Source of the DNA: Pseudomonas amygdali
Lineage (GTDB): Bacteria; Pseudomonadota; Gammaproteobacteria; Pseudomonadales; Pseudomonadaceae
Assembly (NCBI RefSeq): GCF_002699855.1
Contig: NZ_LKBW01000299.1
Coordinates: 1 to 64,000 of the forward strand
Reading direction: 5' to 3'
DNA: 64,000 nucleotides
This document shows, one piece after another, positions 1 through 8,405 of the stretch. Each line of letters opens with the position of its first letter. Positions within the stretch are counted from its first letter, which is position 1. The notes below the pieces were generated by a model. That model worked only from the letters and a program-made list of their open reading frames with translations. It ran no database searches and was not told where the DNA came from. A program made the position numbers and the translations under genes.

Positions 1-231
1 CCGAGTCTGCCCAGGTGGCATGACTCAAACAAAAGGGTCTCCGAGAAACCCGGGGCGGTTCAGCCTGTGTTGAAAATGTCTTCGACTGAGGGGGTTTCCC
101 TTTCAATCTGACCTGAGCGTTCCAGTTGCCTGATGGTAGGGAGCGGATGTTAGCCATGTTGACGCCTCATGATGTGAATGGGCGTTCTCTCAAGGCCATA
201 GCCTGTATGGGCTAGTGGGTATTGCTCCTCT
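1..231. other. Gene-less left edge, probably the tail of an integrated element
   Basis: I find no credible coding region here. The stretch lies immediately left of a truncated tRNA-Val 3' half, so by the usual geometry of tRNA-targeting integrases it would be element-derived DNA rather than ancestral chromosome. No integrase gene is visible, because the window starts too late. The assignment to an element is an inference from the tRNA fragment alone. Confidence 0.4.
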
Positions 232-278
232 CCTTGACATGGTGGGGGTCGTTGGTTCGAGTCCAATCGCGCCTACCA
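232..278 (+). repeat. 3' half of tRNA-Val(GAC), probable att site
   Basis: The segment holds the anticodon loop (TTGACAT, anticodon GAC), the 3' anticodon stem, the variable loop, the T arm (GTTGG, TTCGAGT, CCAAT) and the 3' acceptor strand GCGCCTA plus encoded CCA. The matching 5' acceptor strand, the D arm and the 5' anticodon stem (expected CCACC) are absent; the upstream bases are unrelated. It therefore cannot be a functional tRNA. A tRNA 3' half flanked on the right by the tRNA's own terminator is the classic distal attachment site left when a tyrosine-recombinase element inserts into a tRNA gene and rebuilds it at the other end. Confidence 0.8.
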
Positions 279-302
279 GATAAAATCCGCTCTGCTGGGC
301 GG

Positions 303-336
303 TAAAAAAAGGGTCAACCGAGAGGTTGACCCTTTT
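303..336 (+). terminator. Rho-independent terminator of the tRNA-Val locus
   Basis: A perfect stem GGGTCAACC / GGTTGACCC closes a GAGA loop, with an A-run before it and a T-run after it, so it can stop transcription in both directions. It lies about 25 bases after the CCA of the tRNA fragment. This supports the DNA right of the fragment being the native downstream flank of the tRNA gene. Confidence 0.85.
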
Positions 337-370
337 TTGTTGCGTCTGTTTCACCCGAAGCAAGTGCCCG

Positions 371-414: not shown

Positions 415-1476
415 TCAGGGAATCAGTCGGTCACGGCGCAGCTTTTCAAATACTTCGAAAAACGCGTCGTGACTCGCCTGAAAAGCCGTGAAGCCCAGTT
501 TGCGACTTTTCGACATATCCGTAACCACTTCGATCGGGCGACCCAGGTCGGCGTCGGTGTGCCATGGCGAAATCAGGCGATTGATATCGCCTTCCTTGAG
601 TTGATGCTCGCGGACAATATCGGTCCAGGCAGCCTGATCATCGGCCATCTGCGTTTCCAGCGGGGCTGGCTCGCACGGAAAATCGGCTGGCTGCAGGTCG
701 AAGTACTCGGCGATCTGCCCCCACATCCAGCTCCAGCGGAATACGTCGCCATTGGTGATGTTGAACGCCTGATTTGCCGCAGCAGGCGTCGTGGCGGCCC
801 ACAGTTGCTGATGGGCGAGCTGACGTGCATCGGTCATGTCGGTCAGACTGTCCCACTGCACGCGTGAGCCCGGAAACACGAAAGGTCGGCCGGTTGCCTT
901 GCAGATCGAGGCATAGACGGCGAGGGTGGTCGCCATGTTCATCGCATTGCCGACCGCGACACCTGTCACGGTGTGCGGGCGATGGACGCTCCAGGTAAAA
1001 CCGTCTTTCTCGGCGGCAGCGAAGACTTCATCTTCCTGCGCGTAGTAGAAGTTCTCGATATCCAGGCGCGCTTGCGTCTCCCTGAACGGCGTTTGTGGCA
1101 GTGTGCCCTTACCGTAGGCTTCGAACGGGCCAAGGTAATGCTTGAGCCCGGTGACCAGCGCAACGTGTTTCACACTGCCAGCGGGCCGTACAGCATCCAG
1201 CACATTGCGCACCATCGCAGCATTGACGCGGATGTTCTCTGCTTCAGTGGCCTGACGCGACCATGTGGTGATGAAAACGTGGGTGGGCTTCAAATCAGCC
1301 AGGGCCGCACTGACGGACTCCGGGTTCTGCAGGTCTGCAGCCACCGGAATTACGCCGGGCCGCGCTGACGGACTACGGGAGAGGGCGGCAACCTGCCAAT
1401 CGTTTTCCAGTAACAGCTGTGTGATTGCACTGCCGACAATGCCACTTGCGCCAACAACCAGGGCGGTCTGAGTCAT
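415..1476 (-). CDS. PRISE-type (progesterone 5-beta-reductase/iridoid synthase-like) SDR reductase
   Basis: The 353-residue product is an atypical extended short-chain dehydrogenase. The nucleotide-binding turn is GASGIVG (residues 9-15). The PRISE hallmarks follow: TW at 71-72, TGLKHYLGPF at 109-118 with the family lysine at 112, and NFYY at 142-145 with the catalytic-type tyrosine. Members reduce activated C=C bonds of enones with NAD(P)H; the bacterial substrate is unknown. The length is normal for the family. No metabolic partner is adjacent: it lies between the tRNA terminator and a Nudix gene on the same strand, about 130 bases away. The family call is firm, the substrate is not. Confidence 0.85.
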   Translation of the reverse strand: MTQTALVVGASGIVGSAITQLLLENDWQVAALSRSPSARPGVIPVAADLQNPESVSAALADLKPTHVFITTWSRQATEAENIRVNAAMVRNVLDAVRPAGSVKHVALVTGLKHYLGPFEAYGKGTLPQTPFRETQARLDIENFYYAQEDEVFAAAEKDGFTWSVHRPHTVTGVAVGNAMNMATTLAVYASICKATGRPFVFPGSRVQWDSLTDMTDARQLAHQQLWAATTPAAANQAFNITNGDVFRWSWMWGQIAEYFDLQPADFPCEPAPLETQMADDQAAWTDIVREHQLKEGDINRLISPWHTDADLGRPIEVVTDMSKSRKLGFTAFQASHDAFFEVFEKLRRDRLIP

Positions 1477-3629: not shown

Positions 3630-6512
3630 ATGACAGTCTCACATCTGGCCACGGGTATATGCCCAAGCGTAGCGTTCAGTCCAGACACCACGTTGGCTGC
3701 CAACCATGACAGATTCGCCAGTCACGCGCCCATCGACGCACTTTTGAGCGCTGCACGGGAACAGATACCGGATATCGCCTGGGCGGCCTACGCTGCAGGC
3801 GAGCTGAAATGTCTGCTCGGGCAGGGCGACCCTGCAGTCGTCTGGCCTGCGCACATCGCTGCTGAAGACTTCGACACATACTGTGCTCAATTGCAGCTTC
3901 ATTGCCGAGTCGCCGGGCAGGGCGAGGGCGTGTTGGGCTGGGTGCTGGCGCCAATGGCTGAAAAAGACCATCCCGCGCTGGTGGATCTCGCTGCCAGACT
4001 GGGTTCACTGTTGCAGACCGCTGCGTTGATCCGGGCGCAGAACACCCAGCGGGTTCTCTATGAAATCAGCCTGCTGGCCAGCTCCACGCTGGATCTCGGG
4101 GCTTTTCTGCAGGGTATTCATGAGCAGTTGAGTGCGCTGATCGATGCCGAGAACTTCTACGTCGCGCTGTATGACCAGCAAAGCCGCAAGATCACTTATC
4201 CGTATTACATCGACCGTTTCGATGACGAAGCGATGGGCCACGAGACGTTCGAATTCATCGACGCCGATCGAATGTCGCTCACCGGGTATGTCTTGAGCAC
4301 CGGGCAACCCTTGTTTCTGGAAGCTGCCTGTATCGAGCGAGCAAAAGCCGAAGGTCGTTTTTTCTGGGTGGGGCGTCTGCCGGAGTTCTGGATGGGCGCG
4401 CCCCTGAAAAACGCCTCGGACGAAGTATTCGGCATGGTTGCGATGCAGGTCTATGACGTGTCCCGCGTCTACAGTGCTCAGGATCGCGCGTTGTTTTCCG
4501 TGGTGTCGCGGCATGTGGCGATGGCCCTGGACCGGCTGCTGCGCCGTACCGACCTGGAGCAGATTGTGGCACTGCGCACACAACAGCTTTCGGCAGCCAA
4601 TGACGCCCTGCGCCAGGAAGTGCGCGACCGTGAACGCGCCGAGCACTTGCAGAGTGCTCTGTTCCAGATTGCCGAGCTTTCCAGCCAGCCGGGCGATATG
4701 AATGAGCTGTTTCGCAGCCTGCACATGATTGTCGGCGAGCTGCTGGTAGCACTCAATTTCTACATCGCCCTTTACGACAGCGCTACAGGCGAAGTGACCT
4801 TTCCTTACTACATCGACGAATACCAGCACACGCCGCCACGTTCACGGCGTGGGCAGCGTGGCTTTACCGAGTATGTGATAGGCCAGCGGCGACCCTGTCT
4901 GATCGATTACGACGATGCCCGCAGGCTGGAAAGCCTCGGCGAAATCGAGGTGCAAAAAAACACTGGTCGTTCTTCTTCCTGGCTGGGCATTCCGTTGTTC
5001 GATGGCGAGCAAGTGCGCGGCGTCCTGGTGGTGCAAAGCTATTCGAAGGATGTCAGCTATACCTTGCGTGATCAGGAACTGCTGACCTTTGTCTCTCGCC
5101 ACATCGACACGGCACTGTCCCGGCGCAGTGCGGCAGAAGCGATCCATACCGCCAATGTGCTCCTGGAAGCCCGGGTTCGCGACCGGACCCGGGAGCTGGA
5201 CCAGGCCAACGCCAGGTTGCAGCATGAAAACTCCCACGACTCGTTGACCGGGTTGCCCAACCGCAGTCACTTGCAACATCGCCTGAAACAGGCATGGCAA
5301 GACTTTTGCCTGAACGGCCAGCAGCTGATTGTCATGTTCATCGATCTGGATCGCTTCAAGATGATCAATGACAGCCTTGGCCACCACTGCGGCGATATCC
5401 TTCTGGTGCAGGCCGCCGAGCGGCTGCGCAGTTGCATGCGTGAAGGGGATCTGCTGGCCAGGCTTGGAGGTGACGAATTTGCGGTGCTAAGCATCGATGC
5501 ACCGTTACAGGCCGGTACGGATATAGCCCAGCGGATCCTGACCGCCTTCGAGCAACCGTTCGTGATTGACGATCACAGTGTCTTTTCTTCTTGCAGCATC
5601 GGCGTGGTGGGTGCTGACAGCCGCTTTCATGAGGAGCCGGCAGACCTCTTGCGTGATGCCGACACCGCCATGTACCGGGTCAAGAATGGTGGGCGTGACA
5701 GCTTCGCCGTGTTCAATCAGGCTCTGCGTCGGGAGGTGTCGGATCAGGTCGAGCAAGAGGGAGCGTTGCGCACGGCCCTGAAGCGTACTGATCAACTGAT
5801 CCCCTATTTTTAGCCGGTCATCTGTGTCAGGACCGGAGAGTTACTGGCGTTCGAAGCGTTGATCCGCTGGCGCATGCCGGATGGACGGATCGTCGGGCCG
5901 GAAAGCTTTTTGCCCGCGCTGGAGGGTTTGCGCCTGATTGGTCGTCTGGATATCTACATGCTCAAATGCGTGGTGAACATCCTGGCGCAACCCGAGAACG
6001 GCCACTGGCCGCCAGTGCATGTGAACTGCTCCAGCTACAGCATCACCCGCCCGGCATTCGCTGCAGAAGTGCTGGCGATGCTTGCTGAACAGAATGTTGC
6101 GCCCTGGCGTCTGTGCCTGGAACTTACGGAGGGGGCACTGGTGGCCGACCCCGAGCAGGCACGCCTGTCAATGAAGCAACTGGCCGAGCAGGGCATGTCG
6201 GTCATGCTGGACGATTTTGGCGCGGGGTTTTCTTCGCTCAGCTATGTGCATCAGTACCATTTCAGCGGCTTGAAAATCGACAAATCGTTTATCTTCGGAC
6301 TGGCCTCCAGCATACGCAGCCGGGCCATCGTGCGGGCCATCGTACGCATGGCCGAATCCCTTGATCTGAACGTCGTCGCCGAAGGTGTCGAAGATCTGGA
6401 AACACTCGAGTTGCTGCGCGAGATCGGCGCGACCCAGGCGCAGGGTTACTACTTCTCTGAACCTTTGCCGATCGAGCTGTTGAACGTCAATACCGGTCGT
6501 GCGGCAGGCTGA
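3630..6512 (+). pseudogene. GAF-GAF-GGDEF-EAL cyclic-di-GMP protein interrupted by an in-frame TAG
   Basis: The frame runs 960 codons apart from one TAG at 5811-5813 (codon 728). The first part has an N-terminal region, two GAF domains (about 130-300 and 340-505), a coiled linker and a GGDEF domain with intact GGDEF (613-617) and the inhibitory RxxD (605-608). The second part continues in the same frame as an EAL domain with EAL, ELTE, DDFGAGFSS, KID, VAEGVE and QGYYFSEP, all that a phosphodiesterase needs. The context LIPYF-stop-PV matches the usual YFQP of such proteins, so CAG to TAG is the simplest explanation. As it stands, a 727-residue cyclase without EAL is made. Confidence 0.85.
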
Positions 6513-6522
6513 AATCAGCCTG
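6505..6522. terminator. Palindrome overlapping the EAL stop codon
   Basis: CAGGCTGA and TCAGCCTG pair perfectly around AA, covering the stop codon of the EAL reading frame. A second small hairpin, TGCCG-CAAA-CGGCA, follows at 6537-6550 and a T-run lies near 6561. Together they could end transcription, although no element is a textbook intrinsic terminator. Confidence 0.4.
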
Positions 6523-6636
6523 TGTCGGTGAATGTTTGCCGCAAACGGCAGAATGTATGGGTTTTTTTGACAGTGCCGATCATGAGTATCTGAATTTAAG
6601 TTATAAAAATCAGTAACTTATGGATTTACTGTGCAC

Positions 6637-6654
6637 TTGGCACTGGACTTGCTG
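6637..6654 (+). promoter_or_regulatory. Sigma-54 (RpoN) -24/-12 promoter
   Basis: TTGGCAC, five bases, then TTGCT places GG (6639-6640) exactly ten bases before GC (6651-6652), the diagnostic sigma-54 spacing, and the flanking bases also fit the consensus. Transcription would start near 6664, about 27 bases before the next gene. An activator site should lie further upstream; the small palindrome at 6537-6550 is a candidate only. Confidence 0.75.
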
Positions 6655-6655
6655 T

Positions 6656-6676
6656 TGAACCTGCGCAACAGGTTCA
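6656..6676 (+). promoter_or_regulatory. Inverted repeat over the predicted start site and leader
   Basis: TGAACCTG and CAGGTTCA are perfect inverted repeats around CGCAA. The element lies between the sigma-54 promoter and the ribosome-binding site GGAGGTG of the 184-residue gene. It could be a repressor operator, or a 5' mRNA hairpin that affects stability or translation. Confidence 0.5.
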
Positions 6677-6690
6677 TCAGGAGGTGAAAG

Positions 6691-7245
6691 ATGATTATTG
6701 GCACGAGTGCGCTTGAGCAGCTTGTTTCCCGGGCTGTGGTTGGGCGCAAAACCGTAGATGAGGTGTCTCAGGACGCATTCAGCTCGGTTGCCGCCGCTGG
6801 CCTGACATCAGGTTCGGCACCGGTTACCATGCCGGTCAGCAATTCAACATCGCAAGACAGCAAGCAGGACAACAGCGGTTACAACGAATCCTTCGCGCGG
6901 ATGATGATCAATCTCAAGTCTGCCGGTGATTCGTCACTGTCGGAAAAGACGGCTGATCGCGACAACGGTGTCATCGGTTCAGTGGCCAGCGCCACCAGCA
7001 CCACTGACACTGCATCGACGGGTTCGGTAGAACAGAAGTTCATGGACTCTCTGAAGCAGACGGCCGAAGAGAAAGTGCGCGAGAAGCTGACGGGCGTCAC
7101 CCAGAAAGACTACGACGCCATGGCACCTCAGGACCAACTGGCCATTGACCAGAAAGTCCAGGACGCGCTCAAGGACAAGCAGAACAACGTTGCGGATGAC
7201 ATCAACACCCGCATCAGAGGTATCAAGGCCGGGATGGTGGCTTGA
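6691..7245 (+). CDS. Unrecognised Ser/Thr-rich soluble protein
   Basis: I do not recognise this 184-residue protein. It has no signal peptide or membrane segment. Residues 1-110 are rich in Ser, Thr, Gly and Asp and look disordered, with a short amphipathic start (MIIGTSALEQLVSRAVV). Residues 110-184 are charged and predicted helical (EQKFMDSLKQTAEEKVREKL; KVQDALKDKQNN) and end in IKAGMVA. The ribosome-binding site is strong and the gene stands alone behind a sigma-54 promoter. A polar, Ser-rich N terminus is common in type III secreted proteins, but I see no hrp box, so secretion is speculation. A REP pair follows. Confidence 0.75.
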   Translation: MIIGTSALEQLVSRAVVGRKTVDEVSQDAFSSVAAAGLTSGSAPVTMPVSNSTSQDSKQDNSGYNESFARMMINLKSAGDSSLSEKTADRDNGVIGSVASATSTTDTASTGSVEQKFMDSLKQTAEEKVREKLTGVTQKDYDAMAPQDQLAIDQKVQDALKDKQNNVADDINTRIRGIKAGMVA

Positions 7246-7290
7246 CCAGGCAGTGGGTTCGGTTGCTTGTTCGGCGACTGTAATGGCTCT

Positions 7291-7401
7291 TTCGTGAGCA
7301 AGCTCACTCCCACAAATGGAATGCTTTCCAAATGGGAGTGAATCCTGAAACTTCTCCCGCTTGGAACAGGTTCGGAATGTGGGAGTGAGCTTGCTCACGA
7401 A
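7291..7401. repeat. Inverted pair of Pseudomonas REP palindromes (REPIN)
   Basis: Positions 7291-7313 and 7379-7401 are perfect 23-base inverted copies of each other, built on the core GAGCAAGCTCACTCCCAC typical of Pseudomonas REP elements. The pair is about 65 bases apart and lies between two convergent genes. Such REPINs are moved by RAYT transposases acting in trans; no RAYT gene is in the window. Confidence 0.85.
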
Positions 7402-7466
7402 GACTTTATTTCATGCGTTACATGTTGCGGATGTACCGCTGTTTTTGTTTCTCGTCGAAAACTGAA

Positions 7467-8405
7467 TCACCCCAACTGATGCCGATACGGCAGATCCGGT
7501 CCGACCTTTGTGCAGGTCAGCGCGGCTGCGCCGACGGCAAAATTCAGCATCTCGTCCAGGGTTTCCCGTGACAGCGTCGACAAGCCTTCTGGCGTATCGA
7601 GCTGACGCTCGCTGAGGAAGGTCAGCAGCGCCGCCTGAAAAGTATCCCCGGCCCCGACGGTATCGGCGGTGACCACCGTTTTTGCCGGCACTGACCAAGT
7701 ACCATGCTGCCGGGTAAAGACGCTGGCACCTTGCGTGCCGCGGGTGACGATGACCAGTTGCGTACGCTTGCCGAGCCAGCCTTCGGCGATTTTTTGTGGA
7801 TCGCTGTCCGGGTACAACAGGTGCAAATCTTCGTCACTGACCTTGATCAGGTGCGCATGTTCGGCGAACGCTGCGATCTGGCTGCGCCAGCGCTGAATGT
7901 CCGGTGCCGGGTTGAGGCGCACGTTGGGGTCCAGTGAAATCAGGCGCGTCGCACTTTCGCGGGCGACCAGCGCCAGCAGTGTGTCGGCAATCGGCTGCAC
8001 CACCAGCGAAAACGAGCCGACGTGAATGCCGCGTACCTGCGCATCGAGTTCCGACAGATGTTCAAGGCGCAACTGCCGGTCCGCGCAGCCGTCGCCGCGA
8101 AAGCTGTAAGTCGGCGAGCCGTCGCTGCCCACGGCGACCATGGCCAGTGTCGTGGGCGCGTCGAACTCAACCAGGTGATCGGTATTGACCGTTTCCTTTT
8201 CCAGCACGGCACGCAGACGGCGGCCCAGGTAATCGGTGGACAGCCCGGCAAAGAAGCCTGCCTCCACACCCAGGCGGCGCAGTCCGATCGCAACGTTGAA
8301 TGGAGAGCCGCCGGCAATCGCATCAAACCCCAATCTGTTCAGGGAACCGCTGTCATCAGCGCGGGTAAAAATATCGAACAGTGCTTCGCCACAAACCAGA
8401 AACAT
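7467..8405 (-). CDS. mtlZ: Fructokinase, PfkB family
   Basis: The last gene of the polyol cluster encodes a 312-residue carbohydrate kinase that phosphorylates fructose made by oxidation of mannitol or sorbitol. PfkB features are the N-terminal LVCGEALFDIF, the GGSPFNVAIGLRRLG substrate region, and the C-terminal signature DTVGAGDTFQAALL with the catalytic aspartate. The start at 8405 is preceded by GGAG at six bases; the open frame extends 35 codons upstream without a site. It lies 22 bases after mtlY, consistent with one transcript. A REP pair follows. Confidence 0.9.
   Translation of the reverse strand: MFLVCGEALFDIFTRADDSGSLNRLGFDAIAGGSPFNVAIGLRRLGVEAGFFAGLSTDYLGRRLRAVLEKETVNTDHLVEFDAPTTLAMVAVGSDGSPTYSFRGDGCADRQLRLEHLSELDAQVRGIHVGSFSLVVQPIADTLLALVARESATRLISLDPNVRLNPAPDIQRWRSQIAAFAEHAHLIKVSDEDLHLLYPDSDPQKIAEGWLGKRTQLVIVTRGTQGASVFTRQHGTWSVPAKTVVTADTVGAGDTFQAALLTFLSERQLDTPEGLSTLSRETLDEMLNFAVGAAALTCTKVGPDLPYRHQLG

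Follow-up and report, generated by a model that had tools for sequence, protein, structure and literature searches.

The window, i.e. the whole 64,000-nt stretch of contig C299 of a Pseudomonas amygdali genome that was analysed here, begins inside an insertion sequence (IS), passes through the start of an integrase gene and a partial tRNA gene, and then enters chromosomal DNA. The genome is available as a draft assembly of 331 contigs, many of which are broken at ISs. An earlier note, made from the sequence of the window, had proposed that a truncated tRNA-Val(GAC) near position 1 marks the far end of an integrated element. The features relevant to this proposal are the following:

1..62, no strand assigned: terminal part of an IS51-type IS of the IS3 family, within which the contig starts
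63..157, minus strand: codons 1-31 and 2 further nt of the island's tyrosine integrase gene, cut by IS51, recognized by translation
158..231, no strand assigned: island DNA that separates the tRNA fragment from the integrase start codon, recognized by likeness to other genomes
232..278, plus strand: displaced 3′ part of tRNA-Val(GAC), att end; length 47 nt, anticodon-loop edge through CCA
311..338, plus strand: intrinsic terminator of the second tRNA-Val gene, on the chromosomal side; stem 311-319/324-332, T-run 333-338
415..1476, minus strand: NAD-dependent epimerase/SDR-like gene, chromosomal neighbour, with Pfam PRISE and Epimerase matches

The tRNA fragment, the integrase start and the IS end

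By sequence comparison, positions 232-278 correspond to the final 47 nt of tRNA-Val(GAC); the 5′ part is missing. No tRNA was called by ARAGORN anywhere in the window. The score of the Rfam tRNA model over 209-275 was 19.9 bits, less than its gathering score of 29. Contig C94 of the same assembly harbors two tRNA-Val copies (#1 and #2); window 232-305 (74 nt) is exactly identical to #1 and window 232-269 (38 nt) to #2, up to the point at which #2 is cut. These exact matches bear out the assignment of 232-278 to a 3′ half lacking its 5′ half. With up to 3 mismatches allowed, a 31-nt core of the fragment was found at two places in the own genome, in the window and on C94, and its reversed control at none.

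The terminator, 33 bases beyond the end of the tRNA, matches the hairpin and T-run behind the second tRNA-Val gene at the empty site of P. congelans described below, in agreement with the view of the earlier note that the fragment is followed by the tRNA's own terminator. The intervening positions 279-305 are identical to the DNA behind tRNA-Val #1 (GATAAAAT) and unlike the DNA behind #2 of P. congelans (AACAAAAT); gene conversion between the tandem copies or strain variation are possible reasons for this likeness. Rfam matches to HPnc0260 (48 bits, cut-off 59, E 0.001), STnc320 and STnc250 over the fragment and the terminator all stayed below the gathering score and were set aside, the aligned part of HPnc0260 being the tRNA 3′ end in reverse reading.

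Translation of the minus strand from position 157 down to 63 yields MANIRSLPSGNWNAQVRLKGKPPQSKTFSTQ, which over residues 1-32 is 94% identical to a 318-aa protein encoded in the island of a relative (L144). This protein is a tyrosine integrase according to Pfam (PF00589, 7.1e-22) and PHROGs (phrog_1, 1.5e-48). In the window, the gene starts 74 bp from the tRNA fragment and reads inwards into the island. The earlier note had expected the integrase to the left of the window, at the side of the intact tRNA; instead, it starts inside the window beside the fragment (63-157, minus strand). The DNA of this flank is shared with other genomes: window 64-231 is 98% identical over 168 bases to a genome designated G192, and parts of it (about 75 to 155 bases) align in 24 further genomes. 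The assignment of positions 1-231 to element DNA thus holds for 63-231, which belong to the island, and fails for 1-62, the end of the IS51-type IS.

The same 62 bases are found at all eight compared contig ends, which diverge beyond them. With 40 of 90 candidates scored, matches to window 1-62 or a longer stretch were found at no fewer than 37 other places of the own genome. Among the plasmid matches listed for 1-62 (30 of 61 records), 22 are annotated as IS51 family transposase, three as IS3 family and five carry no annotation; the name IS51 is taken from these plasmid annotations, the window itself containing no transposase gene. Annotated IS51 copies end with the sequence of window 1-62, and their flanks diverge beyond it. 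The contig break falls inside a many-copy IS51-type element.

Contig C94 and the empty site

In the direction of the window, C94 carries a 467-aa gene, which presumably resembles an FAD oxidoreductase gene, the intact tRNA-Val(GAC) #1, a terminator, a spacer and tRNA-Val(GAC) #2, directly before the contig end. Copy #2 is cut after ...GTCCAATC, 10 bases short of its end, and is followed by a 65-base sequence that occurs at 40 places in the own genome, the C94 site included, 14 of them at the first base of a contig (40 of 116 candidates scored). From the look of its terminal repeat, we take this sequence to be the end of an IS256-family element. The target duplication of IS256 is 8-9 bp. Since the 38-nt overlap is too long for an IS target duplication, the fragment and C94 do not flank a single IS insertion. 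ARAGORN still labels the cut #2 as a tRNA-Val gene, although it is presumably dead; one intact tRNA-Val(GAC), #1 on C94, is kept in the window strain. The intact tRNA-Val(GAC) that had been predicted for the other end of the element was found in part: C94 does contain the 3′ part a second time, but the target copy #2 has its last 10 bases replaced by the IS256-like end, and the intact tandem copy lies just upstream. The IS load of this genome is heavy in general, with at least 37 further IS51-end places and 40 IS256-like-end places on C299, C94 and other contigs.

For comparison, 80 loci were fetched via the SDR neighbour gene, and DNA similar to window 232-340 lies beside this gene in four of them (L013, L014, L018 and L022). 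The P. congelans locus (L013) has the same neighbours and an uninterrupted empty site consisting of a tandem pair of intact tRNA-Val(GAC) genes, as the earlier note would lead one to expect of strains without the element. C94 as the left part and the window as the right part align colinearly to this site and overlap in the tRNA 3′ part; we infer that C94 and C299 are joined in the chromosome. The same left flank without an island, which the earlier note had named as a counterexample, was not encountered among the genomes read. The SDR gene is also present at one occupied site, that of G192 (L143), which by blastn is the only fetched island next to it; it is absent by blastn from the other 16 islands analysed below, which share the tRNA gene and not the chromosomal place.

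Pseudomonas sp. KUIN-1 (L022) was set aside as a further empty site because another tRNA 3′ part lies between its two intact tRNA-Val genes. This foreign 3′ part with a terminator, within 6197-8063 of the locus, is perhaps the remnant of a different island. In P. graminis PDD-13b-3 (L014), stretches similar to window 57-104 (integrase start) and 286-342 (terminator) stand side by side at 6627-6729 without a tRNA fragment; they adjoin two intact tRNA-Val genes and are likely an island remnant.

Islands at tRNA-Val(GAC) in related genomes

All or part of window 64-231 was detected in 26 of 398 sampled genomes of the genus, including the own genome. Of the 25 others, 19 were fetched (left out were G315, G330, G336, G350, G360 and G362, with a short locus only for G330). 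In two of the fetched loci (L148 and L159), the contig stops before the tRNA is reached; they were excluded, which leaves 17 islands with both ends. In every one of these, the fragment is preceded on the same strand, at a distance of 2.1-13.5 kb, by an intact tRNA-Val(GAC). In 16 of the 17, tRNA and fragment have 71-112 bp in common as an exact direct repeat, which includes the stretch corresponding to window 232-278 and starts 0-3 bases before the anticodon loop TTGACAT; the fragment of the remaining island (L155) is imperfect, with 93.75% identity over 48 bases. A frame of the same integrase family as in the window adjoins the fragment in 16 islands; 13 frames are of full length, those of L143, L151 and L157 are not, and L155 contains no integrase frame of more than 100 aa. 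In the seven islands examined for it, the island brings its own terminator behind the rebuilt tRNA. The interiors, 2.1-13.5 kb in length, are very different from each other.

Among 57 relatives searched, one other genome (G030) contains the island end. G192, an assembly of 7 contigs, contains the junction 64-336 without interruption at 97% identity; in other genomes, the identity is 77-82%. A fusion of an island end to the chromosome by misassembly might be suspected in a draft contig that begins at a repeat, and in view of this junction in independent genomes we regard it as next to negligible.

In a phage collection queried with 64-300, the 20 matches listed out of 81 records lie only at or near the tRNA part, and a plasmid collection queried with 64-231 gave a single match of 33 bases (E 0.1); accordingly, no phage or plasmid among the matches listed has the island end of the window. 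The integrase is found in three IMG/VR contigs with 79-96% identity and in four more with 23-36%, and all 124 records of the phage collection that match it do so with less than 60% identity.

With a probability of about 95%, the window starts with the displaced att end of a tyrosine-integrase island at tRNA-Val(GAC), which was later cut by an IS51-type and an IS256-like element. The tRNA fragment, the integrase start, both IS ends, the empty site and the occupied tRNA-Val genes of relatives were observed directly, and the site-specific recombination event itself is presumed. An integrative element that encoded its own tyrosine integrase would have entered the second gene of the tandem tRNA-Val(GAC) pair; the recombination would have taken place in the 3′ part of this tRNA gene, beginning at the anticodon loop. 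Its attP, carrying a copy of the tRNA 3′ part and a terminator as in the relatives, would have rebuilt the tRNA at one end, and the original 3′ part would have been moved to the opposite end, at which the window begins and from which the integrase gene reads inwards. Later, the IS51-type element would have cut the integrase after codon 31, and the IS256-like element the rebuilt tRNA. The central claim of the earlier note, that the fragment is the far end of an element integrated at tRNA-Val(GAC), has withstood the comparison with the second 3′ copy, the empty site and all 17 readable relatives.

As the locus is a tandem tRNA pair in a genome with many IS copies, the fragment could in principle be a decayed third tRNA-Val copy that arose by tandem duplication and was cut by an IS, with no site-specific island involved. 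However, directly to its left, at 74 bp, lies an integrase start instead of an IS or a tRNA spacer, all or part of the same flank is found in 25 other genomes, and tRNA-Val genes are occupied in relatives, which makes such an origin very improbable.

The probably eroded island of the window strain, known systems and island contents

No integrase sequence beyond codon 32 was found in the own genome, where five other matches are partial and 21-42% identical. G192 is the nearest relative at this island end (97-98%), and a search of the own genome with its island, in which 40 of 65 candidates were scored, recovered only the end in the window, transposase-like stretches and parts of tRNAs. Likewise, the acceptor end expected behind the IS256-like element is absent from the assembly, in which tRNA #1 and the window are the sole places with CAATCGCGCCTACCA. 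Since the assembly lacks the other flank of each IS insertion, the window strain has probably lost most of the island by deletion and retains an eroded remnant. Loss by an IS-linked deletion is the simplest reading, with a gap in the draft as the alternative: C94 and C299 are unjoined in the assembly, and the IS flanks that are missing could have been on small contigs lost from the assembly instead of being deleted. The island might then still be largely present between the two contigs, with ISs only at its ends and an interior unlike those compared. The very different interiors of the relatives' islands (2.1-13.5 kb) and the many breaks at ISs among the 331 contigs would fit this possibility; the absence from the assembly of both the integrase beyond codon 32 and the expected tRNA acceptor end speaks against it, and we consider it unlikely, while giving it some weight.

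Under the preferred reading of an eroded remnant, what remains of the island should not move by its own integrase. A putatively active island would have an intact integrase and two intact att sites; in the window strain, the integrase is cut after codon 31 and tRNA-Val #2 lacks its end. The elements that define a tRNA-targeted tyrosine-integrase island are all found, namely a tRNA with a displaced fragment on the same strand, an integrase gene and an empty site, the ends in the window strain lying on two contigs.

The Islander database is built on the signature of a tRNA gene, a displaced fragment and an integrase between them, and 2083 of its 3919 islands have anticodon-centred sites (PMC4383910). 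Islands of the type found in the window resemble this class in the tRNA, the displaced 3′ fragment, the integrase between them and a repeat starting at the anticodon loop (Islander type A; PMC4383910). In contrast, the integrase and the rebuilt tRNA of the window strain are cut and its island ends lie on different contigs; since Islander requires an integrase, it would probably miss this island. PFGI-1 of P. fluorescens Pf-5 is a 115-kb Pseudomonas island targeting tRNA-Lys, with the integrase 335 bp from the tRNA and a 45-bp direct repeat of the tRNA 3′ end (class IA after Williams), the repeat being the feature in common with the present site (PMC2647930). Unlike PFGI-1, the present islands use tRNA-Val, measure 2.1-13.5 kb in relatives and carry the integrase next to the displaced fragment. 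We assume that the term class IA can be applied to the present tRNA-Val site. GI 15 of Pseudomonas sp. UW4 adjoins tRNA-Val, and its likeness as an island by the 3′ end of a Pseudomonas tRNA-Val gene is one of description, not of sequence (PMC3596284). Phage satellites and small integrative elements with replication genes are similar with regard to the replication-like genes in the scanned islands: L161 encodes a 106-aa protein like replication initiation proteins (phrog_8540, 1e-06), and L144, L145 and L162 encode phrog_2467 proteins, one with a DEAD helicase match.

The window contains a worn member of a well-known kind of island. It identifies one end of a recurrent Pseudomonas insertion, that is, of islands of 2-13.5 kb at tRNA-Val(GAC) with a common integrase and differing cargo. 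It also illustrates that ISs can strand an island by cutting the integrase and the rebuilt tRNA, leaving a signature that would escape finders that need an integrase.

An additional feature was observed in nine of the 17 islands (L143-L147, L149, L150, L158 and L161), which contain an inverted copy of the 5′ end of pre-tRNA-Val(GAC). Measured from the anticodon of the intact tRNA, it is located 309-323 bp further on. It comprises 8-12 nt of the leader and tRNA nucleotides 1 to 23 or 24 (with a single mismatch in L161) and passes into a conserved tail that could pair with the leader and the acceptor strand in a predicted hairpin. In this hairpin, 93.8% of the cells pair, compared with 26-46% in slid controls, and a test for covariation was negative: none of the 13 pairs changes on both sides. 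Host leaders are of two types (T or C) at one position, at which the inverted copy follows its own host. The pattern was found in nine of 398 genomes, the own genome not among them, and in one IMG/VR contig; Rfam gave no family at the inverted copy beyond tRNA and the sub-threshold HPnc0260. A subfamily of the islands might make a tRNA-Val decoy RNA from this copy and not merely carry cargo. We consider this quite improbable, because the agreement with the host leaders rests on one variable position and no Rfam family is found there. The island of the window may have had an inverted copy before its erosion.

Regarding the cargo, 13 proteins chosen by eye from the relatives' islands were scanned with PADLOC. 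Five have strong matches; of the other eight, two have weak ones (E 0.004-0.005) and six none. L152 encodes two retron-type reverse transcriptases with RT-Protease_XI and RT_V as best models, and matches to PDC-S32, PDC-S60 (200 of 906 profile positions) and PDC-S15 were obtained in L151, L154 and L162, respectively, making the tRNA-Val(GAC) islands candidate carriers of anti-phage cargo.
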